35,514 nucleotides of DNA from a virus. The position numbers and the translations under genes were made by a program. The notes under the pieces are model-generated. The model made no database searches and had not been told where the DNA came from. It was given only the letters and a program-made list of their open reading frames with translations. Shown piece by piece: positions 14,985 to 35,514 of the stretch. Where the stretch lies: positions 1 through 35,514 of the IMG/VR virus record IMGVR_UViG_3300022920_000019. One strand, 5' to 3'. Position 1 is the stretch's first letter; every line of letters begins with the position of its first letter.

Positions 14985-15844
14985 TGCCCACACCAATTCT
15001 ATCTGAGTTCTATGGTGACAACACACGATGGTTTATTGCAACTGTCGTAGATGCGTCTCCCCCATATGGTTTCGAGGGTCGTGTGAAGATTCGTGTTCAT
15101 GGATTACACACAGAATCTACTCGACTGATTCCTCAAGCAGACTTACCTTGGGCACAATGCGTAGTTCCTACTACCGAGGGTGGTGCATCTGGTATAGGAA
15201 GAATGCCACAATTACAACCAAGTGCATTGGTATTTGGTATGTTTATGGATGGGGTCAACTCACAGACACCTATTGTATTGGGTTCTCTACCTCATGTGGA
15301 ATTTCCCACACCCGTACAACTAGGTCAGACTGACGAAGACATTGTGGCAGATAACAAACCAGAAGGACTCTGGAATAAGATCACTGATGCTTTTAAACCA
15401 AAAGAAACTGATATTCAGAACGAAGAAGCAGGAAATATTTCTACTACAGTAAAAATTGCACGACAGAATACGGCAGTAAAGTTCTTCTTGAATGTAGGAT
15501 ATACCGAGAAACAAGCAATCGGACTGACCGCAGGATTATCTATCGCATCTGGTATGCGTACTGGAATCAACCCTCAAGCAAAGGGTCTGGGGGCATTCAG
15601 TGATAGACGATTTGCTGATCTTAAAAAGTTCTCCAATCAAAGTGATAATTTCCTCACACAACTAGCATTTGTTGCCTACGAGTTGAATGGTACTCAGTCT
15701 TCTGCCAACATACGATTGTTACAATCTGACAGACTCGACAATAAGGGTATCTGTCACATAGTAGGTAAATATTATTTGGTCAATGCTCCTAGTGTGAAAC
15801 AAATAGAATTGGAAGCAAGACGATTGACGGATAGGATAGTATAA
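14984..15844 (+). CDS. 5: gp5-like hub protein: OB fold plus tail-lysozyme-like domain
   Basis: 286 aa. Residues about 15-45 (RWFIATVVDASPPYGFEGRV, KIRVHGLH) and the segments up to VLGSLPHVEF form the gp5/VgrG OB fold that binds the gp27 ring. Residues about 155-280 resemble the phage tail lysozyme family (PF18013 as I recall): FFLNVGYTEKQAIGLTAGLS, GINPQAKGLGAFSDRRFADL, FLTQLAFVAYELNG. In that family the motif after GYT..QA.GL usually reads ESG; here it is IASG (A188), so the presumed catalytic Glu is missing. The protein ends without the beta-helix of T4 gp5, which is on a separate gene at 17843. Coupled to both neighbours by TAATG overlaps. Confidence 0.75.
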   Translation: MPTPILSEFYGDNTRWFIATVVDASPPYGFEGRVKIRVHGLHTESTRLIPQADLPWAQCVVPTTEGGASGIGRMPQLQPSALVFGMFMDGVNSQTPIVLGSLPHVEFPTPVQLGQTDEDIVADNKPEGLWNKITDAFKPKETDIQNEEAGNISTTVKIARQNTAVKFFLNVGYTEKQAIGLTAGLSIASGMRTGINPQAKGLGAFSDRRFADLKKFSNQSDNFLTQLAFVAYELNGTQSSANIRLLQSDRLDNKGICHIVGKYYLVNAPSVKQIELEARRLTDRIV

Positions 15845-17853
15845 TGGCATTAAGAAAACAAGATTTAAATCACATCCTAACTGGTGAAGCAATACAGAAT
15901 AGTGATGAGAAAAACAATTTTCAACAGAAAACACTTGCGTCTATTGACGAGACCTATGCTAAGAGAACAACTCTTGTTGGACAAATAGATGGTCAGATTC
16001 TTGGTGGTATAAAAGCACTTGGAGCATCTACCAATTCGAGTGAAGAAGTTATAACCAGTGCGGTTGGTGCGATTACTGATGCGTTTCCTACAACGGGTGC
16101 TGTGGGTAACCTTATTGTTGCCACCAAAGATACCGTAGTAGACTCTAATGGTGAGTTCCTACGATTCAAATCAGATTTAGATTCGGCAGGGGGTCTTGTT
16201 CTCAATACATTAGGTATAGACTCTGATGGTAGTGGTAATCTATCCGTGTTACGAGGTGCGGGTCGTGATTCCGCAGACGAGGCACGAGGGTTTGGTACTT
16301 TAGAAACTACTGTAACCGCACTGACAGGACTTCCCGCAATCAAGGTAAGTAATCCCACTTCTGCCCTCGCAGTTATCACTGATGGTACTGCCGAAAGTAT
16401 TGCCCAATGTGTTGCGATTGCAGATGATAAAAAAGCAGAAGCATATGCGTCATTGATCGAATTCACCACTGCTGTAGATGCGGCAAAACCCAAATCAGTG
16501 GGGGGTGGAGGAATCATGGGATTCATAGCAACGGTCACGAGTGCTATCAGTGTGGCAGGTAATTTAGCAAACACTCTTGGTGCCATATCACCTGTTGCCG
16601 CAATAAATGACGCAATCCAAACGGCACAGGATGCCGTCAACAACACAACCTTTGTTAAAGAATTAAATGCTACAGTTCAAGGAATAAAAGATAGTCTTCC
16701 TACTCTAGCAGATGTTGAGGCAGTGATTGGAACTGATCTGAAAGACATAAAAAGTGCTATCAATGAAGCAACTGATGCGATAGATACTTTTAATGCTGAG
16801 TTTGATGCTCGTGTTGAGAGTGGACTTCCCGGTGTGTTACAGGATGTGGCAGAAAACCTTTCGGGGACTGCTAGTGAATTTATTGCTAATCTTGTTCCCG
16901 GTGGTATTGTTTCGTCTGATGCGGAAAGACAACAAATCCTTTCACAGTTTACTAGTGGTGATCCTAGACAGAAGAAGGAAGCAGTCAAGACACTGGTAAG
17001 AAAATCAGACAATGTGACGGGTAGAATGAAAGAAATCATTGCCTCGGACGAAGGGACATCTAGTTCATTAGAGATGCAAATTCAGATGATCGAAAAGGCA
17101 AAGGCACAAGGTGTTCCCGAACAAGAGATTGCGAGAGCACAACAAGAAATCTCCACCATTGATGATAAAATGTCTAAACTGGACACTACTATCTCTGGTA
17201 CTGTTGTTATTGATGCAAGTCTGTACGAGGAAGGTCAACCCGTCAGTACCGACAAATGGGATGGTCGCAATAGTCCAGACGATACCTTTACCTATGTTTC
17301 ATCGGTAGAAGAACTAGACGCAGAGTTTACTAGGGTAGAACGAGATGTGACCGAGGTTGTTGTTCACGCATCCGAGACTCACACCAATAAAGACATCGGT
17401 TCTATAGAGATAAATAACATACAGATTGATCTTGGACATGACGGTATTGGATACCATTATGTTATACGAAGAGATGGTAGATTACAACGAGGCAGACCAG
17501 TGAACATACAGGGTGACCACGCACCAGTAAATGGTCACGACAAATTTTCTATTGGTATTGTGATGGTTGGTGGTATTAATGTTGCTACGGGTGAAGACAA
17601 CCCAACGGACTACCTTTCTTCTCAGTCATTTACAAGAGAACAGTTTACGACATTAGAGAAGTTTTTGAATGGATACTATCGAAGATTTCCCGGTGGTCAA
17701 GTATTTGGTCACAACGATATTGATGTCAATGAACTTGATCCATATTTTGATGTGGTAGATTATGTAGAGTCTGTGTTCAGAAAACAGAACAGAACAGACG
17801 ATCCATTGAATGCTTCACCATTGAGTCCATCGGAGATGAATAGTGACAACTAA
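15844..17853 (+). CDS. Tail-associated hub protein with C-terminal N-acetylmuramoyl-L-alanine amidase domain
   Basis: 669 aa. The first 450 residues are Ala/Ser/Thr-rich and helical with long amphipathic stretches. The last ~170 form an Amidase_2/PGRP domain: EVVVHASETHTN (H508), GIGYHYVIRRDGRLQRGRP (Y537, H538), GDHAP...GHDKFSIGIVMVGG, then VFGHNDIDVNELDPYFD. By comparison with AmpD and T7 lysozyme, H508, H623 and D632 would bind zinc. The enzyme would cut the bond between muramic acid and L-Ala in peptidoglycan, locally, during infection. Placed between the OB-fold hub gene and the needle gene, it likely supplies the wall-cutting activity that gp5 lysozyme gives T4. The start overlaps the previous stop. 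Confidence 0.85.
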   Translation: MALRKQDLNHILTGEAIQNSDEKNNFQQKTLASIDETYAKRTTLVGQIDGQILGGIKALGASTNSSEEVITSAVGAITDAFPTTGAVGNLIVATKDTVVDSNGEFLRFKSDLDSAGGLVLNTLGIDSDGSGNLSVLRGAGRDSADEARGFGTLETTVTALTGLPAIKVSNPTSALAVITDGTAESIAQCVAIADDKKAEAYASLIEFTTAVDAAKPKSVGGGGIMGFIATVTSAISVAGNLANTLGAISPVAAINDAIQTAQDAVNNTTFVKELNATVQGIKDSLPTLADVEAVIGTDLKDIKSAINEATDAIDTFNAEFDARVESGLPGVLQDVAENLSGTASEFIANLVPGGIVSSDAERQQILSQFTSGDPRQKKEAVKTLVRKSDNVTGRMKEIIASDEGTSSSLEMQIQMIEKAKAQGVPEQEIARAQQEISTIDDKMSKLDTTISGTVVIDASLYEEGQPVSTDKWDGRNSPDDTFTYVSSVEELDAEFTRVERDVTEVVVHASETHTNKDIGSIEINNIQIDLGHDGIGYHYVIRRDGRLQRGRPVNIQGDHAPVNGHDKFSIGIVMVGGINVATGEDNPTDYLSSQSFTREQFTTLEKFLNGYYRRFPGGQVFGHNDIDVNELDPYFDVVDYVESVFRKQNRTDDPLNASPLSPSEMNSDN

Positions 17854-19354
17854 AAAAGACAATTTTAATACAAGAGTTGAGCAACTCGGTGAGGGACTAG
17901 AGAATACTTTGGGTGTTGCCCAAGATGGTATGCAAGACCCTACAGGTGAATATCCCAAACGAGACTATAACTTTGGGACATCTATCAATAAGGCATCTCG
18001 TGGTTCCAAGGTAAACAACCTCTATGTTGGGGGTGGTGACATTGGTGTATCCTTGGGAATACAACCACAGAGACCATCCGAGTATCCGTTTAACCAAGTA
18101 CAAGAGACTATCTCTGGTCATGTGATTGAACAGGATGACACTCCCGGTGGAGAACGAGTACTAATCAAACATCGCACAGGTGCGGGTGTTGAGATGAGAG
18201 CAGATGGTTCTGTTATTATCTCTGCTGTAAACAACAAGGTAGAAGTGACTGGTGGTGACCAGACTGTTATCATTGAGGGTAATGGTAATCTCGTGTATCA
18301 GGGTAACTTGAACATGAAGGTGACTGGTGACTATAATGTTGATGTTGGTGGTAACTATAATCTTAATGTGGCAGGTAGTCTACGAGAGAACATCCTAGAG
18401 AATCACCGAACGATCACCACAGGCAATCGTGAAGAGACTGTCAAGAAGAGTAAGATCAACCGAACAATGAGTACACTCACCGACATATGTCTGGGTGAAC
18501 ATAACATCGATGTCAAGTTGGATCAGAAGACTGCGGTTGAGGGTAACATAGAAATTGCGGGTGGAGCATCCGTCTTTGTGTCGGGTGAAGAATCCTTTGC
18601 GGTATCTGCCGATGTTGCCAATGTGACTGGTGCCAAGTATGTCTCCGTCTTAGGACAGAGAGGTGCGATTGGTGGTAAGTTGGTTGACTTCACAGGTAAT
18701 GTATTCCAAGGTGGTGAGGGTGCGGTTCCATTTAATTCTGGTGCGGTGTTCTATGGTTCGTTCTATGGTAAGGCACTTGAAGCAATCAAGTCGAACCATG
18801 CTGATAAGGCAGACCTCTCACTCAGATCATACTATGCTGAAAACTCTAAACACGCATTGACTGCGGTCACTGCGGGTACTGCCGCAACTGGTGCGTCATC
18901 ATTCTCACCACCTAAGATTCTCACAGCAGGTATTCATATACCTATGCTTGCATTAGAAGAGATGGCACTACCAAGTGGTCACGCAGAACCACCTCAAGCA
19001 CACATCACCCCCGACTGGGTAGTTGGTCAAGTTGCTAATGGTGACTTTGCGATTAGGACTGTTGTGATTGATGGAGGGGATGTGTTGTTGACCAAGACAT
19101 TACTTACGGATGACTATGAGGATGTGTTCAATCATGTTCCATCAACCCAAGAGATTCGTTCTGCGTTTAGAAACGAAGCATCCAGAAATGCAATCGGAGG
19201 AATACTTGTTTCCGAAGAAAGACTTAATACAAAATACAAAGTAAAGGCACCACCGAAGATCGGTAGAACAGTGAAGAAATCCCCATCATCTAGATTCGGA
19301 TTTGAACCTATTGGTAATGCAGTTGAGAATAGAGGAAAGAGGTTTACACCATGA
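17843..19354 (+). CDS. Central spike / needle protein with gp5-type beta-helix
   Basis: 503 aa. Residues about 85-240 consist of short repeated strands of the V-x-G-D/N type, such as VEVTGGDQTVIIEGNGN, KVTGDYNVDVGGNYNLNVAG and ENHRTITTGNREETVKKS, the signature of the triple-stranded beta-helix of gp5/VgrG spikes. C-terminal of this are further Gly/Ala-rich parts (AGGASVFVSGEESFAVSADV) and a basic end. It would form the membrane-piercing needle beneath the hub. The GTG start at 17843 has GGAG at 17832-17835 seven nt upstream and lies 2 codons after an in-frame TGA; it overlaps the amidase gene by 11 nt. Confidence 0.8.
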   Translation: MTTKKDNFNTRVEQLGEGLENTLGVAQDGMQDPTGEYPKRDYNFGTSINKASRGSKVNNLYVGGGDIGVSLGIQPQRPSEYPFNQVQETISGHVIEQDDTPGGERVLIKHRTGAGVEMRADGSVIISAVNNKVEVTGGDQTVIIEGNGNLVYQGNLNMKVTGDYNVDVGGNYNLNVAGSLRENILENHRTITTGNREETVKKSKINRTMSTLTDICLGEHNIDVKLDQKTAVEGNIEIAGGASVFVSGEESFAVSADVANVTGAKYVSVLGQRGAIGGKLVDFTGNVFQGGEGAVPFNSGAVFYGSFYGKALEAIKSNHADKADLSLRSYYAENSKHALTAVTAGTAATGASSFSPPKILTAGIHIPMLALEEMALPSGHAEPPQAHITPDWVVGQVANGDFAIRTVVIDGGDVLLTKTLLTDDYEDVFNHVPSTQEIRSAFRNEASRNAIGGILVSEERLNTKYKVKAPPKIGRTVKKSPSSRFGFEPIGNAVENRGKRFTP

Positions 19355-25702: not shown

Positions 25703-28700
25703 ATGCCAAAAACATTTACATCCAATGTATTCTCCTCCTCTTACAAGGATGATTTTGTAGACAGTGATAACTATCACAGAATCCTCTTTAATAGTGGTCG
25801 TGCTCTACAAGCAAGGGAACTTACCCAATTACAAACTATTATCCAAGAGGAAATAGGAAGATTTGGTAGAAACATTTTCAAGGAAGGTGGTGCTGTCAAT
25901 CCCGGTGGGCCAACTATACACAACGATACTGAGTTTGTCAAGTTAAATGTTGCGGGTGAACTCGATGGACTTCCTGCTGATTCAACTGAAATAGTAGGAA
26001 CAGTCTTCATTGGTAACCAGTCTTTGGTTCAAGCAAGAGTACTGGAAGTTATTCCTGCCGAGGGTGCTGACCCTGCTACATTGTTTGTTCAGTATATAAA
26101 CACTCAAAATGCTACCGCAGATGTAAATGGTATTCGTTTCTTCCCAGATGAAACGATGAGTAACGGTTCTAAGCAGTTAAGAGTTGCAGCGACTGTTGGT
26201 ACTGACCTCCCTGTCGGTCGTGGTTGTAAATTCTCTAGTTCCGAAGGTGACTTCTTTACTCGTGGACATTTCGTATTTGCAACTGCTCAGTCAATTATCC
26301 TTTCCAAATATAGTAGATTCCCAACTGCGACTGTTGGTTTTAAAGTAACAGAAGATATCGTAACATCATCGGATGATACTGCGTTATTTGATAACCAAGG
26401 ATCAACTCCAAACCTTGCCAGTCCCGGTGCGGATCGTTATCGTATTAAACTTACTCTCGTCAACAAAGCAGATGTTGCTAATGATGAAAACTTTGTGTAC
26501 TTTGCCGATGTTCTGGATGGTAATATCGTTGATGCCGTAGAGGGCACCGATGATTATAATAAGATTGCCGATGAACTTGCTACAAGAACTAAAGAAGAGT
26601 CTGGTGACTATATTGTCGATCCATTTACAATAGACTTTTCCGATCAAAGTGACTCAGGTTCCGCAAATAATATCACTGCGACTGTATCAAATGGTGTTGC
26701 GTATGTGAATGGTTACCGTGGTGATGTGAATACTCCCGTACCACTAATACTTCCCAAATCTCGTGCAACCGAGACAGTTAATAATCAATTTACTGGTATT
26801 TCCTATGGGCAGTACTTTATTGTTGCAGGAGCAACTTTCAAGGGATTACTTGACACTCGAACCTATGCTACAATAAACCTATCTTCACACGCAACCGATC
26901 CATCTGGTAGTGCGATTGGTACTGCACGAGTTCGTTATGTCGAAGAAGATGGTTCAAACTACCGAGTTTACCTGTTCGACATTAATATGAACTCAGGACA
27001 GAATATAAGAAGCATCCGATCTATTGGTACCAACGCAACCAATCGTGGTATTCCTGTTCTTGAGGGTAGTCAGGCAGTACTGAAAGAAGTTCGCAAAACT
27101 AACATGGTCTTTGGATTACCTAATCCTCGACCCAAAGTACTTACAGATATTTCTTACGAGGTTCAACGAATCTTAACTGGTACTGCCAGTGGAACTCAAC
27201 TACAGTTTACCTTGACAACTTTTGGAGAAGCATTCTCTAACGAATCGCAGTGGATTGTTTGTGATGCGGATGGTGATGTTATATCTCCAACTATCACATT
27301 GTCTAGTGGCAACGAAACCGCAACCATTACAGGATTGGCAAACGAAGCACACACTGTTTATGCCAAAGTAAGTAAAGGTAACCCAACAGTTCGTCTGAAA
27401 AACCTTACTGATGCGACCGTAACAACCACAGTGACCACTGGTTCTGATGGTGTTAGATTTGTCAATCTGGGTGTCACAGACATCTATAAGGTTTCGGCAG
27501 TAAAACTAGGAAGTTCTAGTGGTGCTGACATTTCTCACCTATTCACCTTAGACGATGGTCAACGAGCAGGATTCTATGGTCTGGGTCGTATGGTACTTGA
27601 GACTGGTGCAACGGCACCGACTGGAAATGTCTATGTGTCATTCAAACACTTTGTTCATGGTACAGGTGACTTCTTCTCTGTGACCTCTTATAATGGTCAG
27701 GTTAATTACGAGGACATTCCTAATTTCAAAACTGGAGTGAGAACTAGTGTAAACCTAAGAGATGTTATTGATTTCCGTAATGGTGTGAATTCTAGTAATG
27801 CCTTTGTTGCTACCTCTGCAACCGAACTTCCCACTAATGGTGATACGGTTCAAGCAGATGTTGAATACTATCTACCTCGTACAGATAAGATTGTCGTGAC
27901 CACTCAAGGTGAAGTTAAGAAAATTCTAGGTGAAGCAGGATTTACTTCTCAGATTCCCGAAACTCCGATTGACACGATGGCACTATTCACCATTGAGCAC
28001 AATGCCTATGGTCTGAATGACTCGGATGTGGTTCTTACTCCATTCAAAGCAAAACGATTCACGATGAAAGACATTTCCAAACTGGAAGATCGAATCGACA
28101 AGGTTGAAGAAGCAACCTCACTAAGTTTGCTTGAAGTTGATACTGCTAATCTGATGGTATTGGATGAGAATGGTAATCTAAGAACTAAGTCTGGTTTCTT
28201 TGTAGATAACTTTGCAAACAGAACATTCTGTGATGCAGATAACATTGAATATCGTGCCGCAATTGATCCATCACGAGGACTGTTATCAGTACCTACACTA
28301 GAAGATGATGTGATTCTTGCATACGATTCTTCCAAGTCAACTAACACTATTTTGAAAGGTGATACTGTTTACTTGAAGTATACAGAATCTCCCACTATCA
28401 CACAACCACTTGTATCTGGTACAGAGAATGTAAACCCATTCGCAGTTATCACTGGTGAAGGTAACATTACTATGTCACCCGCAACCGACAACTGGTTCCA
28501 AACCAAGTATACTCCTGCCAATATCATCAACAAAACGGCAGTAGATAATACCGAAGTCAATCTGGGTAACATTAGTAGTGGTTTCCAAGAGATGACTGTG
28601 TCACAGAAACGAGAATTCCTTTGGGGTGGTGGCAACACATATGTTCCCATCACTGGTTTTGGAAGCACCCAATCAAATGTTGGTAGTGGTTGGAGAGGAA

Positions 28701-30910
28701 CTCCCGCATGGAACTGGAGAGGTGTCGTTCAAGAAGGTTCTAGAACTGTTAATGTTGGTAATGACAACGGTGGTCGTAACAACCAAGACTTCAATGTCAT
28801 TGGTTCTTTCTCACAACGAGTTGTTACTGGCACAAAGACTATTCGTAAGGTAGTTGGTGAAAGAACTGTGTCATTGACCTTCCTACCATTCATTCGTTCA
28901 CGAAAAGTATTCTTCCGTGCCGAGGGTCTACGACCTAGTACTAGGTTCTTCGCATTCTTTGATAATAAGAGTGTTGATCAATTCTGCCGTAATGAAGATT
29001 CGTTCAAACGATACGGTGACATTGCTACAGACGCACAATATGCTAATAGCATGAGAAAGTCAACTTCTCACCCCGAAGGTTCAGCAAACCTTATCAGTGA
29101 CGGAGCTGGTAAGATCGAGGGTTCTTTCTTCATTCCTTCTAATGAGACAACTCGTTTCCGAGCAGGAACTCGTGAGTTTAAATTACTTGACATTAGTAAG
29201 AATGACGATGATGCGGCACTTTCAAGTGCGACATTCAATTATACCGCACAGGGTACTCTGGATACTAAACAGAAGACTATTACTTCTACTCGTATCACTC
29301 AGGTCAGAACTCGTAGGTGGACTCAAACTCTAAAAGTTAAAGTAAAAGACCCATTGGCACAATCATTCTTTGTGACTAATCCTAATGGTATCTTTGTAAC
29401 TAAGGTTCAGACTTATTTTAGTACCAAGGATTCTACTATTCCGGTTCAGTTACAGATTCGACCAATGGTTAATGGTCACCCAAGTTCGACTGAGATTCAC
29501 GGACAATCTGTTGTGTTCAATGCTCCAAACCAAGTCCATCCTCCTGCTTCACAGACACAAGCAGCGGTAGAGGCATCACCGACTACTTTCGAGTTTGAAG
29601 AACCCATCTTCTTGAATCCCGAAACAGAGTATGCGATTGTACTTCTTGCTGAATCTACTAACTACAATGCCTATGTCGCAGAGACCTATGCGTTTGAGTT
29701 GGGTTCTACCGAGAAGAGAATCTCTCGTCAACCATCTATGGGATCACTGTTTAAGTCTCAGAATGGTACGACTTGGGAACCAGATCAGACAAAAGACCTT
29801 GCGTTCAAAATCTTCACTGCTAACTTTGAGGCATCTGGTACTGCGGTATTTGAGAACCGTGATGTCGATAAAGAACTACTGGACAACAACCCCATATACA
29901 TGAGTGCAGATGTGGGAGCAGACAGTGATGCAGTAGTAATGCTTGTTCCTAATCATGGATTTTCGATTGGTGATACAGTAAAGGTTGAAGGACTGGATAG
30001 TGCTACAACTTATAATGGTGTAAAAGGTACATCTATCCTTGGTGCGAGAACGATCACAAATGCAGATGGATTTGGTATTCAGTTTAATGCCGACTCTTCT
30101 GCGACATCGTCTGGTAGATTTGGTGGTGAGAACATCCTGATTGATAAACAACTTCAATTCGATATTTGTTCACCAAACTTTACTACAATGGTTCCAGATG
30201 ATACTACACTGGTTTATAGCAGTAAGTTTATCACTGGTAAATCATTCGCAGGACTTGAAACCAAGTATCAGAGAGAGGACAACTACAGTAGTGATATTAC
30301 TATCGGAGACGAGAATTATTTCTCTGCTCCACGATTGATCGCAAACCCATCAAACGAGTTGAGTAACCTCGGTGCCAACGAGAGGTCAGTATCAATTAAA
30401 GTTGATATGGCAACATCTCGACCATCGGTAAGTCCTATAATTGACACACAGGGTGCGTCTTTGACAACTGAGTCGAATCAGATTGATAACCAGAATAACA
30501 CTGCGGCAACTGGATTCAATGTTCCATTGACATACTCTGCGGAGACCAATGCGTTTGGTGGTTCTTCACTTGCTAAACATATGTCTGTTGTTGCAAGTTT
30601 GGATGAACCTGCTACTGGTATGAAAGTTATCCTTGCGGCACTAAGACCCGCAGGTAGTGAACTGGAATTATATTTCAGAACTGGTAACGATGGTGAAGAC
30701 ATTCTTGGTAAAAACTGGACACTGATTGCACCAGAATCAACTCAGGCACCAGATGCGATAAACTTCCGAGAGTATCGTTATCTGATTGGTGGTGACAGTG
30801 GAACACTAGATGAATTCACCGAATATCAATTTAAGTTGGTATTCAAGGGGATTAACACATCGCAAGTTCCGTTCATACGAGACTTCCGAGCAATTGCAAT
30901 GGCAACCTAA
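25703..30910 (+). CDS. Very large baseplate / fibre-anchor protein (DUF4815-like)
   Basis: 1735 aa. The N-terminal region, with SYKDDFVDSDNYHRILFNSG, RALQARELTQLQTIIQEEIG and FKEGGAVNPGGPTI, resembles DUF4815 of marine T4-like phages. Further on are long beta-rich parts, a basic-aromatic stretch (GSGWRGTPAWNWRGVVQEGS), and a later segment LKVKVKDPLAQSFFVTNPNG, IFVTKVQTYFSTKDS that is conserved in such proteins. The C-terminus (FTEYQFKLVFKGINTSQVPF, IRDFRAIAMAT) is a beta-sandwich-like end. By position after gp8 it takes the place of T4 gp9/gp10/gp11, probably forming the outer wedge and the attachment point for fibres. Enzymatic motifs were not seen. Confidence 0.75.
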   Translation: MPKTFTSNVFSSSYKDDFVDSDNYHRILFNSGRALQARELTQLQTIIQEEIGRFGRNIFKEGGAVNPGGPTIHNDTEFVKLNVAGELDGLPADSTEIVGTVFIGNQSLVQARVLEVIPAEGADPATLFVQYINTQNATADVNGIRFFPDETMSNGSKQLRVAATVGTDLPVGRGCKFSSSEGDFFTRGHFVFATAQSIILSKYSRFPTATVGFKVTEDIVTSSDDTALFDNQGSTPNLASPGADRYRIKLTLVNKADVANDENFVYFADVLDGNIVDAVEGTDDYNKIADELATRTKEESGDYIVDPFTIDFSDQSDSGSANNITATVSNGVAYVNGYRGDVNTPVPLILPKSRATETVNNQFTGISYGQYFIVAGATFKGLLDTRTYATINLSSHATDPSGSAIGTARVRYVEEDGSNYRVYLFDINMNSGQNIRSIRSIGTNATNRGIPVLEGSQAVLKEVRKTNMVFGLPNPRPKVLTDISYEVQRILTGTASGTQLQFTLTTFGEAFSNESQWIVCDADGDVISPTITLSSGNETATITGLANEAHTVYAKVSKGNPTVRLKNLTDATVTTTVTTGSDGVRFVNLGVTDIYKVSAVKLGSSSGADISHLFTLDDGQRAGFYGLGRMVLETGATAPTGNVYVSFKHFVHGTGDFFSVTSYNGQVNYEDIPNFKTGVRTSVNLRDVIDFRNGVNSSNAFVATSATELPTNGDTVQADVEYYLPRTDKIVVTTQGEVKKILGEAGFTSQIPETPIDTMALFTIEHNAYGLNDSDVVLTPFKAKRFTMKDISKLEDRIDKVEEATSLSLLEVDTANLMVLDENGNLRTKSGFFVDNFANRTFCDADNIEYRAAIDPSRGLLSVPTLEDDVILAYDSSKSTNTILKGDTVYLKYTESPTITQPLVSGTENVNPFAVITGEGNITMSPATDNWFQTKYTPANIINKTAVDNTEVNLGNISSGFQEMTVSQKREFLWGGGNTYVPITGFGSTQSNVGSGWRGTPAWNWRGVVQEGSRTVNVGNDNGGRNNQDFNVIGSFSQRVVTGTKTIRKVVGERTVSLTFLPFIRSRKVFFRAEGLRPSTRFFAFFDNKSVDQFCRNEDSFKRYGDIATDAQYANSMRKSTSHPEGSANLISDGAGKIEGSFFIPSNETTRFRAGTREFKLLDISKNDDDAALSSATFNYTAQGTLDTKQKTITSTRITQVRTRRWTQTLKVKVKDPLAQSFFVTNPNGIFVTKVQTYFSTKDSTIPVQLQIRPMVNGHPSSTEIHGQSVVFNAPNQVHPPASQTQAAVEASPTTFEFEEPIFLNPETEYAIVLLAESTNYNAYVAETYAFELGSTEKRISRQPSMGSLFKSQNGTTWEPDQTKDLAFKIFTANFEASGTAVFENRDVDKELLDNNPIYMSADVGADSDAVVMLVPNHGFSIGDTVKVEGLDSATTYNGVKGTSILGARTITNADGFGIQFNADSSATSSGRFGGENILIDKQLQFDICSPNFTTMVPDDTTLVYSSKFITGKSFAGLETKYQREDNYSSDITIGDENYFSAPRLIANPSNELSNLGANERSVSIKVDMATSRPSVSPIIDTQGASLTTESNQIDNQNNTAATGFNVPLTYSAETNAFGGSSLAKHMSVVASLDEPATGMKVILAALRPAGSELELYFRTGNDGEDILGKNWTLIAPESTQAPDAINFREYRYLIGGDSGTLDEFTEYQFKLVFKGINTSQVPFIRDFRAIAMAT

Positions 30911-31116
30911 TGAGCAATTTCATCGGTGTGGAAAGTAACTCGGATTTGGCAAGATGTCCAAATTCGGGTGCCATTATTAATATAAATAAAGATGAGATAA
31001 AAAAAGCAAAAGCATTAAAACTCGCACGACAAAATAAAGATAAAGAGTTCCAAGAGTTAAAACAAGATGTTGTCGAACTCAAAGCACTCCTCAATAAATT
31101 AGTAGAGAAACTATAA
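30910..31116 (+). CDS. Small coiled-coil protein
   Basis: 68 aa. A short N-terminal segment (NSDLARCPNSGAIININKDE) is followed by a continuous heptad-patterned helix (FQELKQDVVELKALLNKLVE). This layout recurs in T4-like marine phages next to neck, baseplate or fibre genes; its role is not established. The ATG overlaps the stop of the 1735-aa gene and its own stop overlaps the next ATG (both TAATG), so its level is tied to these structural genes. A trimerisation or assembly aid is plausible. Confidence 0.7.
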   Translation: MSNFIGVESNSDLARCPNSGAIININKDEIKKAKALKLARQNKDKEFQELKQDVVELKALLNKLVEKL

Positions 31117-32213
31117 TGGCATCAAGAACTTCACAAGTGACCGTCACCGACATACAGGATACCTTTACTACACTAGTATCCAATCTGAATCATATCTCAT
31201 ATGATGTTGGTTCGACAGGGGGCACTAATGGTTTAAACACAAACGAAGATTCCGATTTAGTTGGTTCTATTAACGAACTTGAATTGGGAATTCGTGGTAC
31301 CTCTAACAATCTAGTAGCAACTGACCTTGCTGACTTTACTGCCAATAACATCGTATCTGCACTACACGAACTTGATAGTGACCTTCACGGTGCGGGTGGT
31401 GGTAACGCAAAGGCAGACTTGACCACCAATGCGAATGACATCGTATCAGGTATCAACGAACTTGAAGTAGGTATCCGAGGAACATCAAACAATCTAGTTG
31501 CAACTGATCTTTCGACTACTGCGAATGATCTTGTAACTGGTGTCAACGAACTAGATTCTGACATTGGTGCGAGACCACATACTAATCTGACCACTGCTAC
31601 AAAGACTTTGACTGCGGCAATCAATGAACACGATGCAGAGTTAGGTACGATCACTGCGTTAGCAATGGGTACAACCGCATCAACTGTATCAACCGCAATT
31701 AAAGAACTAGAAGTAGAGATTGATACACTCAATACCTTTGTTGAACCCACACAGGCATTGACCACTACTGCGACAACTGTTGCTGATGCGATCAACGAGC
31801 ATGATGCTGAGATCGGTGCCGCAACTCTTGCTACATCGGCAACCACTCTCCGTGGTGCGATAAACGAATTACACACCGAAGTTGGTGATGCAATTGGTTC
31901 GGCAAACAACACAACCACTGGTAATATTGGACAATCTCTAAACTTACTAGATAGTGCGGTAGGTAATTTAGGTTCCCTTACTGCCACAATAACTAATAGA
32001 ACAACCCTCGTAGATGCGATCAATTCAAACACGGCAGATATTGCTACACTTGATGCCAATGGTATTGCCGCAAACCAAGCATTGGGTTTACTAAGTGACT
32101 TGGATGCCACAGGATTTACGGGATCGGAAAGAACAAATTTTGTAAATGCATTGAACGCATTAAGGGCGGACATTCCACTGATATATGACGAGAATGGAAC
32201 TCAACTAAATTAA
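31116..32213 (+). CDS. Repeat-built fibre/whisker protein
   Basis: 365 aa, made of about nine units of roughly 30 residues with a core like T-x2-L-V-x-A/G-I-N-E-L-D/E-x-E/D-I-G: examples are DLVGSINELELGIRG, DIVSGINELEVGIRG, DLVTGVNELDSDIG, TLTAAINEHDAELG, TVADAINEHDAEIG and TLRGAINELHTEVG. A block GIRGTSNNLVATDL is exactly repeated. The units suit a segmented trimeric coiled-coil shaft like fibritin or long-fibre stalks. The C-terminal 50 residues are not repeat-like (SERTNFVNALNALRADIPLI). It lies between baseplate and tip-fibre genes, so it may link them. Confidence 0.75.
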   Translation: MASRTSQVTVTDIQDTFTTLVSNLNHISYDVGSTGGTNGLNTNEDSDLVGSINELELGIRGTSNNLVATDLADFTANNIVSALHELDSDLHGAGGGNAKADLTTNANDIVSGINELEVGIRGTSNNLVATDLSTTANDLVTGVNELDSDIGARPHTNLTTATKTLTAAINEHDAELGTITALAMGTTASTVSTAIKELEVEIDTLNTFVEPTQALTTTATTVADAINEHDAEIGAATLATSATTLRGAINELHTEVGDAIGSANNTTTGNIGQSLNLLDSAVGNLGSLTATITNRTTLVDAINSNTADIATLDANGIAANQALGLLSDLDATGFTGSERTNFVNALNALRADIPLIYDENGTQLN

Positions 32214-32231: not shown

Positions 32232-34343
32232 ATGAGTAGTGTTCCATTAAAGTTAAATGACAGTGCGGCACCAACCAAACTGCAACAAATGTCAACAACC
32301 GAAGAGAACTACCTCGCATATCAGGTAGGCCTTGGTTTTGCGGCACTTGATAGTTCGTCTGTAAATCAGTTAGGTGTAAACTTAACAGGTAGCAACCGAA
32401 CGGTCGGAACTTTCACTGACACATCATATGATTCTGCGATAGGAACTCATAGTAATCTATTGTCACTGACCCAAACTGATACTATAGTCCGACAAAAGAC
32501 TGGTACGATTGCGGTTAGTAATACTGATTATCGTGTGCCCATTTCTATGCGAGATAGTGGTGGTCAATCAATTATCGATGAGATGAATGACACCAAACTA
32601 AATCCTCTGCTTGATCGTGTTGCTTCTAGAATATACACCTCCGACTATCCCGGAACATACAAACTGGCAACCTCCGCACCAAGTAGTGACTATTCGGTAA
32701 ACCTTGCCAATGTAATGACTGACACTAGGTCAGATGGTCATTCATTGACATATAATATCTACAAAAGAAATACCATGACCGCACCCACAACGGTGCGACC
32801 ATTTGCGATCAAGAGGTCTAGTGGTAGAACAGGTACTTATCAGGGTCTACAGGCAATGACCGATGCTCAGATTAAGTACACTCTTGGTTTGAATATAAGA
32901 AATCGAATATCTGCCACTGCCAACTCGGTTGGTTCGTACAAGTTATTAAGTTCCGCAACAGGAACCCCGACTAACGCAGGATTTGCGGGAACTTGGCAAG
33001 CAAAGGGAACTGCCACAGATACTCGACAAGATTTAACAATTGCTGACTACACAAGGTCTCGTTCATCAACCTATTCGAGAACAAGGAGTTCAGCATTTAC
33101 TGCTGACTACACAAGGACTCGTGCCTCTACATATTTAAGAAGTTCGACAACTTCTCGCAGTAGTACCTACTCTGCCACCTATACAAAAACTCGCACGAGT
33201 AATTACTCTCCTGCCTTTGTCGGTGATTATATTGGTAACTTTACAACTTCTACTGGAGCAACTTTTAGTCGTACAAGAGGATCGACACTTACATATCTTG
33301 GTGAGTTTACTGGTGATTTTACTGGTAACTATGGTAATACTTTATCATATTTGGGTGAGTACACAAACAATTTCATTGGAAACTATCTGGGTCAAGATTT
33401 CTTGCAAAATTTTTCTCGCACACTATATGTGAGTGTTGACCAAGAGGAATTCGATTACACTGGTAACTTCGCAACTGCTTACGCAGGTACCTATACTGGT
33501 AACTTTACTCGAACTAGTACTACAGGTGTCAGTTATCAGAGAAATAGTACCAACACATTCACAGGTAATTACACCAGATTAACAAGTTATGTTGGTAACT
33601 ATAGTAATACATTTACCACAGAATCTACTCGTAACAGTCAACGAATCACTGCCAACACCTATGTTCGTCAACGAATAGATACCTATACTGGTGATTTTAC
33701 TAGAGATCGACAGACTAACTTTGCCAGAAACTTTACGGGTGACTATACTGGTGATTTTACTGGTAATTTTACTGGTGATTATATCGCAAACTTTACTGGT
33801 AACTATACCAGAAACTTTTCTCGTGTCACTAGAGTTCAAACCGTGTTTACTAGAAGTTTCTCGACATATCAAATGGGTAAAGGTATCTGGTTCTACTCTT
33901 CTGGTTCCTATGTCGGTTCACCTCAATATTATTCGAGGAATTTTGCAAGAGAATATCTGAGATATCGGGCAGTAAACTATCAACGAACTCGTGCAACTGC
34001 ATATAGTCGAACCTTCGCAGGTGCGTATGCGAGAAACTATTTGGGTAACTTTATCGGTGAGTATGCGAGTGATTTCCAACGCACTGTTCAAGAGAGTTTC
34101 ACAGGGGCATCTTCATTCGCACGAGATTTTGCGGGTAACTTTGTTGGTGACTATGCTAGAAACTTTACTGCTCAGTTTACTGGTGATTATGGTAGGAATT
34201 TCGCAGGTAACTATGCAGGTAACTATTCGAGGAACTATTTGGGTAACTATGCTAGGACATTCGCAGGGAACTATACTGGAACAACAATTGGAGCAAGTCC
34301 TGTGAACATAGAAACCTATACCTTATATGTAAGAGTTGTATAA
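32232..34343 (+). CDS. Tail fibre-like protein with aromatic-glycine tetrapeptide repeats, copy 1
   Basis: 703 aa. Residues 1-270 form a unique N-terminal part (TTEENYLAYQVGLGFAALDS; SDYPGTYKLATSAPSS; TVRPFAIKRSSGRTGTYQG). From about 272 the chain becomes low-complexity: first Y-S/T-R-T/S-R-x-S-x-Y units, then tetrapeptides x-G/R-N/D-Y/F such as FTGDYTGDFTGNFTGDY. An island at about 545-560 (MGKGIWFYSSGSYVGSPQYY) interrupts the repeats. The C-terminal end is IETYTLYVRVV. Every fourth residue is Tyr or Phe for long stretches. It is probably a receptor-binding or shaft protein given the adjacent genes. GGAG lies 12 nt before the ATG. The next gene is a paralogue. Confidence 0.75.
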   Translation: MSSVPLKLNDSAAPTKLQQMSTTEENYLAYQVGLGFAALDSSSVNQLGVNLTGSNRTVGTFTDTSYDSAIGTHSNLLSLTQTDTIVRQKTGTIAVSNTDYRVPISMRDSGGQSIIDEMNDTKLNPLLDRVASRIYTSDYPGTYKLATSAPSSDYSVNLANVMTDTRSDGHSLTYNIYKRNTMTAPTTVRPFAIKRSSGRTGTYQGLQAMTDAQIKYTLGLNIRNRISATANSVGSYKLLSSATGTPTNAGFAGTWQAKGTATDTRQDLTIADYTRSRSSTYSRTRSSAFTADYTRTRASTYLRSSTTSRSSTYSATYTKTRTSNYSPAFVGDYIGNFTTSTGATFSRTRGSTLTYLGEFTGDFTGNYGNTLSYLGEYTNNFIGNYLGQDFLQNFSRTLYVSVDQEEFDYTGNFATAYAGTYTGNFTRTSTTGVSYQRNSTNTFTGNYTRLTSYVGNYSNTFTTESTRNSQRITANTYVRQRIDTYTGDFTRDRQTNFARNFTGDYTGDFTGNFTGDYIANFTGNYTRNFSRVTRVQTVFTRSFSTYQMGKGIWFYSSGSYVGSPQYYSRNFAREYLRYRAVNYQRTRATAYSRTFAGAYARNYLGNFIGEYASDFQRTVQESFTGASSFARDFAGNFVGDYARNFTAQFTGDYGRNFAGNYAGNYSRNYLGNYARTFAGNYTGTTIGASPVNIETYTLYVRVV
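33679..33829 (+). repeat. Tetrapeptide-coding repeat array, central block of copy 1
   Basis: Imperfect 12-nt units (ACTGGTGATTTT / ACTGGTAACTAT type) code x-G-N/D-Y/F tetrapeptides, for example GDYTGDFTGNFTGDY. Third-base variation between units shows that selection acts on the protein pattern. Confidence 0.8.
34111..34290 (+). repeat. Tetrapeptide-coding repeat array, C-terminal block of copy 1
   Basis: A second run of 12-nt units codes ARDFAGNFVGDYARNF and GNYAGNYSRNYLGNYARTF. Here Ala-Arg and Ala-Gly pairs replace Thr-Gly, but the aromatic residue stays at every fourth position. Confidence 0.8.
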
Positions 34344-34351: not shown

Positions 34352-35514
34352 ATGGGAACTACGACATTAAAACTTGAAGGTACCAACGGAGACCTCAAGG
34401 AAATAACGACTACCGAAGAGAACTACCTTGCTTATCAAGCAGGGTTACATCTTGCTACCTTGGATTCGAGTGATGTCGGGGCAATAACCACATCCCCAAC
34501 AGGCAATACTTTAATCGGTACTCATACAGATAGTAGGTTTGATGACGGTTCGGGTACTCACGGATTCACTGGTGGTAATGTTCCGATCATTCAAGAAACC
34601 ACATCTCTGTATCAGAGAGAAGGTGTCGCAGACTTTGCGGGAGACTCTGCCGCATTCCGATACCCCATTGAGTTCGCAGACAACGGTGGAACACCAGAAC
34701 TACACGAATTAGATTCCTCTGAGATGGATACTCTGTCTGACAGACTAATGTCTCGTATTGCGACATCTGAATATCCCGGTGTATTCAAACTTGCCACATC
34801 TGCCCCTAGTGGATATGGTACCTACAAATCAGGTGTATTTGCTGATAGACTACAGACAGGTACCACTGGAACCGTATATAATCTCTATGTAAAGAATACA
34901 ATGTCTGCCCCGACTGCGGTGAGACCTGTTGCCATCAAGAGAGCAAGTGGACTGACTGGCACCTTCCAAGGTGTCCAAGAGATGTCTGATCCAGAGATTG
35001 CTTATACCTTTGGCACACGAGTCCAGACTCGAATGATGAACGGAAGTGGTGTTATCGGAACATACCAGATGCGGAGTTCGGCACAGGGTGCTCCAACTGA
35101 TACTGGTACTTGGACTGCTCGTGGTACTGCATCAGACTCTCGTTTTGCTACAACAACTGCTGACTACTCTGCTGACTACACAAGGACTCGTTCAAGTAAT
35201 TACACTGGCAACTTCGCAAGGAACTTCACCGCATCTTTTGAAGGGACATTTGTGGGTAACTTCCTCCGCAGTTTCCTTGGAGATTACATTGGTGACTATG
35301 CTAGGAATTTCGCAGGTGACTATATTGGTGACTATGCTAGGAATTTTTTAGGTAATTACACTGGTGACTATGCTAGGGGTTTCTTGGGTGACTATGTTGG
35401 TGACTATGCCAGAAACTACTCAAGAACTCGTATAACAGATTACACAGGCAACTTTACTGGTGATTTCACTGGTAACTATACTGGTAACTACGCAAGAAAC
35501 TTCTCTGCTGACTA
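34352..35514 (+). CDS. Tail fibre-like protein with aromatic-glycine tetrapeptide repeats, copy 2 (runs off the right edge)
   Basis: At least 387 codons with no stop before the window end. The N-terminus MGTTTLKLEGTNGDLKEITT, then TEENYLAYQAGLHLATLDSS, SEYPGVFKLATSAPSSG-like and NTMSAPTAVRPVAIKRASG segments align with copy 1 (TTEENYLAYQ, YPGTYKLATSAPSS, NTMTAPTTVRPFAIKRSSG), proving tandem paralogy. After about residue 270 it enters the same repeat style (FLGDYIGDYARNFAGDY). Between the shared blocks the two copies differ a lot. It has its own late promoter box at 34339-34346 and no ribosome site. Confidence 0.75.
   Translation, partial: MGTTTLKLEGTNGDLKEITTTEENYLAYQAGLHLATLDSSDVGAITTSPTGNTLIGTHTDSRFDDGSGTHGFTGGNVPIIQETTSLYQREGVADFAGDSAAFRYPIEFADNGGTPELHELDSSEMDTLSDRLMSRIATSEYPGVFKLATSAPSGYGTYKSGVFADRLQTGTTGTVYNLYVKNTMSAPTAVRPVAIKRASGLTGTFQGVQEMSDPEIAYTFGTRVQTRMMNGSGVIGTYQMRSSAQGAPTDTGTWTARGTASDSRFATTTADYSADYTRTRSSNYTGNFARNFTASFEGTFVGNFLRSFLGDYIGDYARNFAGDYIGDYARNFLGNYTGDYARGFLGDYVGDYARNYSRTRITDYTGNFTGDFTGNYTGNYARNFSAD
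35161..35514 (+). repeat. Tetrapeptide-coding repeat array of copy 2
   Basis: 12-nt units to the window edge. A 23-nt stretch is perfectly repeated at 35288-35310 and 35324-35346, a 36-nt offset that equals three tetrapeptides, pointing to recent in-frame duplication. Confidence 0.8.

Follow-up and report, generated by a model that had tools for sequence, protein, structure and literature searches.

An aromatic-tetrad repeat family of putative tail-fibre proteins in marine T4-like phages, linked to genes for a predicted oxygenase-fold protein and a glycosyltransferase-like protein

A pair of two-part genes at the end of the window

The window analysed here, a virus record of 35,514 bases (IMGVR_UViG_3300022920_000019), contains a T4-like tail cluster that ends in two adjacent genes, P0001 and P0002, each encoding a non-repetitive N-terminal domain followed by a long repeat rich in regularly spaced Tyr and Phe. 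P0002 starts 8 bases after P0001 and is a paralogue with the same build (an N-domain of ~266 residues, then repeat). The two belong to an unrecognised protein family with a strict partnership to two enzyme genes, and no catalogued repeat was found to fit. We infer that both genes code for tail-fibre proteins and that they come from a marine T4-like phage. A first reading made from the letters alone (the sequence-only reading) had placed the element at 32508-34343; the true open reading frame (ORF) is 32232-34343, position 32508 falls within the conserved N-domain, and the repeat begins near 33036. The features are:

32232..34343, + strand: P0001, complete fibre-like protein of 703 residues (N-domain, aromatic tetrad repeat, C-terminal strand); ORF with relatives in loci L006 and L007 that are 93-94% identical
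32232..33029, + strand: N-terminal non-repeat domain (residues 1-266); in the AlphaFold2 model, 21 of the first 26 blocks of ten residues average at least 80; kept in relatives
33036..33230 (limits approximate), + strand: octad variant of the repeat, Y-x-R-x-R-x-S/T-x, from the sequence and family-wide counts
33231..34290 (limits approximate), + strand: aromatic tetrads [YF]-[TAVSIL]-[GR]-[ND] with mostly even phase shifts, from spacing statistics
33867..33932, + strand: short non-repeat island YQMGKGIWFYSSGSYVGSPQYY, residues 546-567, from the sequence
34299..34343, + strand: conserved C-terminal strand, residues 690-703 (ending IETYTLYVRVV), and stop; AlphaFold2 block means 86 and 88, strand at 690-702
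34352..35514, + strand: P0002, second gene of the P0001 family, cut by the record end; 769 residues in L006

The aromatic tetrad and its spacing

Within residues 271-703 of P0001, its repeat part, 84 of 433 are Tyr, Phe or Trp. Aromatic pairs four residues apart number 50, against 16.1 expected and a maximum of 29 in 10,000 shuffles, so the Tyr or Phe at every fourth residue noticed in the sequence-only reading is real. The signal is almost undiminished at lags 8 and 12 (48 and 43 pairs), and 12 of the 83 gaps between successive aromatics are odd. The truncated P0002 has 24 pairs four apart versus 6.1 expected (shuffle maximum 13), and in both proteins lag 12 is the strongest identity lag among lags 1-40. 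The Y-x-R-x-R-x-S-x-Y units described in the same reading are also present, ahead of the tetrads. The 50 tetrads of P0001 comprise 35 distinct peptides in 45 distinct DNA spellings, with FTGN occurring four times in three spellings, FAGN three times in three and FTGD four times in two. The repeat part is rich in T, Y, R, G, S and N and contains 1.0% Pro and 0.6% Lys, the residues that are the targets of modification in collagen.

Neither Pfam nor PHROGs returned a family for P0001 or P0002 at E ≤ 1, and the single PDB sequence match of P0001 at E ≤ 10, an antibody chain (E 0.064), was taken as chance; these searches support the earlier impression of an uncatalogued pattern. A collagen-like repeat was rejected on the grounds that aromatic pairs at lag 3 occur at 0.20 of expectation across the family, Gly stands third in a four-residue unit, Pro is as low as given above and there is no Pfam match. 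For a pentapeptide repeat, lag 5 yields 5 pairs versus 16.1 in P0001 and 0.32 of expectation in the family. The gp5-type octapeptide VxGxxxxx likewise does not describe a unit [YF]x[GR][ND] with a period of 4 and an Arg superperiod of 12. Octads of the gp5 type (VTGDYNVDVGGNYNLNV) are carried by another ORF of the window (17843-19354), which offers a comparison for the tetrads within the window.

A family-wide unit and its grammar

A first viral scan gave 18 relatives, and a profile scan gave 122 matching stretches, from which 79 loci were retained; the related-locus scans covered the best 80 rows each. The counts exclude L001-L005, which are parts of the window, as well as L025 and, from a later stage on, L185 and L186. 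The resulting 113 distinct family ORFs include the two in the window and were chosen by the lag-4 signal, which was found in 99 of 99 loci examined. They hold 9,989 tetrads of the form [YF]-[TAVSIL]-[GR]-[ND], with Tyr (.56) or Phe (.44) first, then T/A/V/S/I/L, Gly (.67) or Arg (.22) third, and Asn (.48) or Asp (.23) fourth. The octad form, Y-[TSA]-R-[TN]-R-[VTAI]-[ST]-x, was read from 2,717 octads with a non-aromatic centre. Among aromatic gaps of at most 20 residues, 14,369 are even and 2,654 odd, and the even fraction per ORF ranges from 0.62 to 1.0 (median 0.85).

The placement of Arg follows rules, which we derived from 506 distinct runs of at least six aromatics, comprising 5,103 tetrads. 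Arg occurs in adjacent units 38 times versus 327.0 expected (0.12 of expectation), is slightly enriched at two units (1.20) and is enriched at 3, 6, 9 and 12 units (1.75, 1.75, 1.53 and 1.36 times expectation); the step from one Arg to the next is three units in 435 cases and two units in 352. The unit order around Arg is also biased, with Tyr before it in 1,286 of 1,424 cases and Phe after it in 1,230 of 1,424. Coupling from unit to unit is generally strongest between neighbours, which was not used to choose a fold because adjacency in the chain alone could produce it.

The 68 complete ORFs with the N-motif span 576-3347 residues. TYT[LMIV]Y lies within the last 25 residues of 73 of the 88 complete distinct ORFs, and 62 of the 99 loci have two repeat ORFs. 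Against 50,697 phage records (records very near the window may be omitted), the N-domain has one match at E ≤ 0.001, in phage C48C1 (OQ984149.1, Kyanoviridae); a second, at E 3, was taken as chance. The C48C1 coding sequence WJE88074.1, annotated 'hypothetical protein', belongs to the same family, sharing 40% identity in the N-domain, the tetrads and the C-terminal motif, and differs in its length of 3347 residues and its several long islands. Long relatives (C48C1, L016, L015 and L018) gave a single weak Pfam match, RIOX1_C_WH, at E 0.014 and below the cut-off; in PHROGs, L015 and L018 gave one weak match each (E 0.0016 and 0.0018), to families of unknown function. One scan of bacterial genomes returned 20 pattern matches with no relative among them.

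The pattern is kept while residues drift

In four near pairs with few changes, the ratio of nonsynonymous to synonymous rates (dN/dS) is 1.01, 0.93, 0.75 and 1.02 in the repeat versus 0.59, 0.43, 0.32 and 0.40 in the N-domain. In the distant pair of the window and L008, it is 0.23 in the repeat and 0.06 in the N-domain, with dS saturated. Sites with Tyr or Phe nevertheless remain Tyr, Phe or Trp in 82/83, 82/83, 72/81, 75/79, 96/97 and 76/78 cases in six pairs, with unchanged numbers when His is allowed as well, and in the two pairs compared residue by residue five of six changes at aromatic sites are Tyr/Phe swaps. Between the window and L008, aromatics (67% identical) and unit position 3 (71%) stand above the rest (37-52%). 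The pattern of the repeat is kept while individual residues drift. The sequence-only reading had held that codons vary while residues are kept; the varied spellings bear out the first half, and what selection preserves is the class pattern and not every single residue.

Non-repeat islands interrupt the pattern. The island of P0001, which contains GKGIWFYSSGSYVGSPQYY, is short and lies near residues 546-567 with repeats on either side; L007, 94% identical to P0001, has an additional block of 118 residues beside it. A crude density filter, which missed the island of P0001 itself, found 141 islands, 115 of them distinct, in 61 of the 113 ORFs; the distinct islands form 54 clusters. The 26 members of the largest cluster are at least in part N-domains from 5'-truncated ORFs, so that this cluster is no evidence for exchange. 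The proposal that the island could form a tip does not agree with its flanking repeats, with the conserved strand in which the chain ends or with the extra block in L007; on these same grounds, the islands look like interchangeable inserts.

Predicted structure of the fibre-like protein

P0001 was modelled with AlphaFold2 as a single chain, using an alignment of 24 rows. Residues 1-266, apart from 68-76, are mostly confident, as is the C-terminal strand 690-702, and the predicted local distance difference test score (pLDDT) is below 50 for residues 267-687. As a confident short strand follows ~400 low-confidence residues, the model suggests that the C-terminus packs against the N-domain and that the repeat may loop out and back. 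The N-domain is likely an anchor. Searches of PDB and BFVD with the whole model gave no fold match at E ≤ 0.001, the N-domain not having been searched alone; in BFVD, the top rows reach E 0.014 and 0.030 and belong to proteins without a name or characterisation. The rows of the VIA comparison (best Z 7.1, root-mean-square deviation 16.6) were not used because they are located on the low-confidence part. The mostly even aromatic spacing would fit an extended beta structure, in which a strand could hold its aromatics on one face.

Fibre, transferase and oxygenase genes travel together

The record ends inside P0002, which made the linked enzyme genes invisible to the sequence-only reading, and the oxygenase and transferase profiles have no match in the window. 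In relatives, genes for a transferase-like and an oxygenase-like protein follow the fibre genes, preceded in C48C1 and L169 by a small ORF. C48C1 has the same transferase and oxygenase genes downstream, and it is the only oxygenase or transferase match at E ≤ 0.01 in the phage records. This partnership beyond the window is more surprising than the repeat itself.

Both enzyme genes are present in all 60 fibre-selected loci with at least 3 kb after the last repeat gene. In scans started from the enzymes, an aromatic repeat lies upstream in 75 of 76, 71 of 71 and 67 of 69 loci with 1.8 kb of room; one such scan gave at least 590 matching stretches in viral contigs, and 73 new loci from its best 80 were tested. 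The loci include duplicate or near-identical contigs and were hence counted by distinct oxygenase core, using 233 loci from the enzyme-started scans only and without requiring the Asn of the HxN motif. By this count, an aromatic-repeat ORF lies upstream of 98 of 100 distinct cores with room under a loose rule and 91 of 100 under a strict one, and the transferase is present beside all 104. Among 166 control ORFs, taken from three tail regions and from the rest of the window, two pass the loose rule and none the strict; the two are a Melnitz ORF (896 residues, 10 pairs versus 5.5) and an S-RIM2 ORF (265 residues, 7 versus 3.0). The seven cores between the two rules have, on inspection, real repeats that are short or Tyr-rich. 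A pooled count that includes fibre-selected loci and requires HxN gives the repeat in 103 of 105 with room and the transferase in 109 of 109. One exceptional locus, L335 (2-2743), has [YF]-I-[DGR]-[ND] units mostly 6 and 10 apart and an internal IETYTLY, then a further non-repeat part; the other, L169 (= L324), is weighed below.

The small charged ORF between the fibre and transferase genes (L024 24130-24591; L169 2766-3248) is a possible fibre chaperone. Upstream of the oxygenase gene in L174, L270 and L291, which have the same enzyme pair, lie Tyr-rich repeat variants with little Gly-Asn (for example YESVYVSEYTAEY).

The linked predicted enzymes

The oxygenase was modelled from 39 alignment rows (pLDDT 91.4; predicted template-modelling score, pTM, 0.89). 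In Foldseek, 45 of the 46 rows at E ≤ 0.001 are 2-oxoglutarate (2OG)-type oxygenases by title, including PHD2 (E 1.2e-4), and the remaining row is a carbohydrate-binding module. In the VIA comparison, all 50 rows shown are of the 2OG type, led by PHD2 (Z 11.3 over 154 residues, 3.7 Å), with a bacterial prolyl hydroxylase (Z 10.7) and a viral collagen prolyl hydroxylase (Z 9.5) among the further matches. The predicted fold contains the double-stranded beta-helix of these enzymes, and the linked gene is thus predicted to encode a 2OG-oxygenase-fold protein. In the numbering of L006, His140, Asn142, His201 and Arg209 are the same in all 40 of 40 sequences; the two His lie 61 residues apart, as they do in PHD2. 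The 298 oxygenase ORFs reduce to 112 distinct cores, ORFs without a readable core being left out, and a pattern for the distal His and the Arg was found in 102 of them. Searches with the oxygenase sequence gave no meaningful match, and no 2OG family is among the 11 Pfam families matched by any of 40 members at E ≤ 1.

The predicted fold is shared with AspH, prolyl hydroxylases and the PBCV-1 viral collagen prolyl hydroxylase; the linked oxygenase differs from AspH and the prolyl hydroxylases in its HxN motif, in lacking a Pfam 2OG match and in sequence, with 7-15% identity in the rows shown. According to a published account, AspH hydroxylates Asp/Asn and lacks the acidic iron ligand (PMC13168262). 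By motif, the linked oxygenase likewise lacks that ligand, and the AspH-type two-His motif would fit it, a likeness of motifs that comes without a Pfam match.

All 115 distinct transferase sequences carry D-x-D and DQ..L[WY]; we refer to the protein as a putative GT-A-like glycosyltransferase.

A proposed fibre and its alternatives

We propose, giving it about an even chance, that P0001 and its relatives form a tail fibre whose beta-structured repeat is hydroxylated and glycosylated by the phage's own enzymes. The conserved N-domain, supported by sequence and a mostly confident model, would bear the long repeat as an anchor. The repeat would form an extended, beta-structured rod, as the mostly even aromatic spacing and the x-G-[ND] unit suggest, and the rod would most likely be an oligomer with neighbouring units on adjacent strands; this arrangement would explain why Arg is avoided in neighbours and why Gly or Arg accompanies the aromatic. 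Fibre length varies widely, and the non-repeat cassettes between repeat stretches may contact the receptor. The GT-A-like glycosyltransferase and the 2OG-oxygenase-fold protein would then hydroxylate and glycosylate the repeat, as gene linkage and predicted fold suggest, with Asn/Asp, Thr/Ser or Tyr as candidate acceptors. Because AspH hydroxylates Asp/Asn and 71% of the tetrads have N or D at position 4, hydroxylation of Asn/Asp in the repeat is our first guess, and only a guess.

Several observations weigh against this proposal. A dN/dS near 1 in the repeat indicates loose constraint on residue identity, and in the two nearest pairs the aromatics (93% and 93% identical) have no special status over non-tetrad residues (94% and 91%). 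The low pLDDT across the repeat also fits disorder. The family-wide period and parity counts depend on the sample because the ORFs were chosen by their lag-4 signal, and related sequences and runs are non-independent samples; the Arg rule and the residue preferences are independent of the lag-4 choice. For the oxygenase, Foldseek template-modelling scores are low (query-normalised 0.21-0.40 in rows at E ≤ 0.001), and all 112 distinct cores have HxN where the usual 2OG ligand set of HxD/E...H plus Arg has HxD/E, so that activity is not certain. For the transferase, 17 of 29 members match PF00535 (GT2) in Pfam, but below the curated cut-off and with E 0.0011 at best; more of them, 20 of 29, match ExbD (E 0.0038 at best), and the PDB profile matches look like chance. 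Finally, the linkage is compatible with other enzyme substrates.

This last point leads to an alternative that we consider unlikely, though to be taken seriously, in which the fibre is as proposed but the enzymes have other targets, such as a small molecule, the surface of the host or a different protein of the virion, and are linked to it only by a shared tail locus. Locus L169 (= L324) speaks for it, retaining both enzymes beside an unlike fibre without tetrads, and so does the related Pelagibacter phage HTVC008M, which has four annotated 2OG oxygenases near its tail genes although a search of its tail region yielded no aromatic-tetrad ORF. The near-constant company of the repeat, upstream of 98 of the 100 distinct cores with room, argues against it, and the exception L335 itself has a spacing variant of the unit and the IETYTLY motif.

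Concerning the fold, the repeat could instead be a beta-solenoid wound from a single chain, each turn taking up 12 residues (three tetrads) and Arg stacking in one ladder, which we find improbable. The Arg superperiod of 12 and the prominence of identity lag 12 in P0001 and P0002 are as this would have it, and the fourth-position Asn/Asp could make turn ladders. However, the single-chain model has low confidence across the repeat, and three units per turn would stack Arg on Arg, placing like charges together while leaving the avoidance of Arg in adjacent units unexplained; by this argument from sequence, the Arg rule favours an oligomer with successive units on neighbouring strands. Just as improbable is an intrinsically disordered, sticky Tyr/Arg-rich chain acting as an adhesive brush, which the T-, Y-, R-, G-, S- and N-rich composition, low model confidence and dN/dS near 1 would suit, whereas the strict spacing of 4 in P0001 and P0002 and the rules of Arg and Y-R-F order would be unexpected of it.

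A bolder form of the proposed fibre, which we put forward tentatively, would liken it to collagen. Marine T4-like phages would then possess a single module that combines a new beta-fibrous fold of aromatic tetrads and its exchangeable cassettes with two dedicated enzymes, a two-histidine (HxN) 2OG oxygenase that hydroxylates residues of the tetrads and a GT-A enzyme that glycosylates them. To our knowledge, a fibre repeat with its own hydroxylase and glycosyltransferase is familiar from collagen and giant-virus collagens and not from phage fibres. The literature matches listed include no report of a phage fibre finished by its own hydroxylase and glycosyltransferase, and no paper was found for the peptide GNYTGN or for phage C48C1. 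If the proposed fibre is real, phages make fibres from a repeat of possibly new fold, with rules readable from the sequence, and finish them with their own enzymes. It would be a length-variable protein material and possibly a new class of substrate for 2OG oxygenases, and would give a use to an HxN enzyme family as numerous in viral contigs as the enzyme scan indicates.

Comparison with other tail proteins and neighbouring genes

The C-terminal triple-stranded beta-helix of T4 gp5 resembles the repeat as a Gly-containing short repeat in a T4-like tail apparatus, and, according to one report, its length can be altered (PMC4576200). It differs in its eight-residue motif VxGxxxxx, with Val first, whereas P0001 has an aromatic step of 4 and a superperiod of 12; P0001 had no sequence match to gp5 at E ≤ 10. 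A 'structural protein' of Synechococcus phage S-RIM2 (AON98036.1; L025 3414-9152), also a T4-like marine phage, has four-residue x-G-[ND] units of the form [VL]TG[ND], differing in Val/Leu for Tyr/Phe and in its N-terminus; its aliphatic tetrads perhaps share an architecture with the aromatic ones. This protein matches T4 gp5 entries at E 0.0062-0.63, which may reflect composition only because the best match of the same query is an unrelated ARID-domain protein (E 2.8e-16).

The P0001 gene sits in a baseplate and tail-fibre cluster, with baseplate wedge subunits (phrog_219, phrog_438) and matches to PF07880, PF09215 and DUF4815 upstream. Two of the neighbours are:

31116..32213, + strand: upstream protein of 365 residues, tail-fibre-like (phrog_25848 'tail fiber protein', E 4.5e-13)
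25703..30910, + strand: DUF4815 protein of the upstream tail cluster (PF16075, E 2.4e-62)

The gp6-like protein of the window scores best, among annotated phages, against those of C48C1 (38% over 98%), Pelagibacter phage HTVC008M (37% over 84%) and Methylophilales phage Melnitz (33% over 99%). The tail regions of Melnitz and HTVC008M (30 and 29 kb) contain no aromatic-tetrad ORF by a stricter ORF rule. In HTVC008M (L186, NC_020484.1), the four genes annotated as 2OG-Fe(II) oxygenases are neighbours at 26443-28682. Within the tail cluster of the window, an ORF of 669 residues (15844-17853) carries an amidase-type domain (phrog_822, E 2.1e-30).

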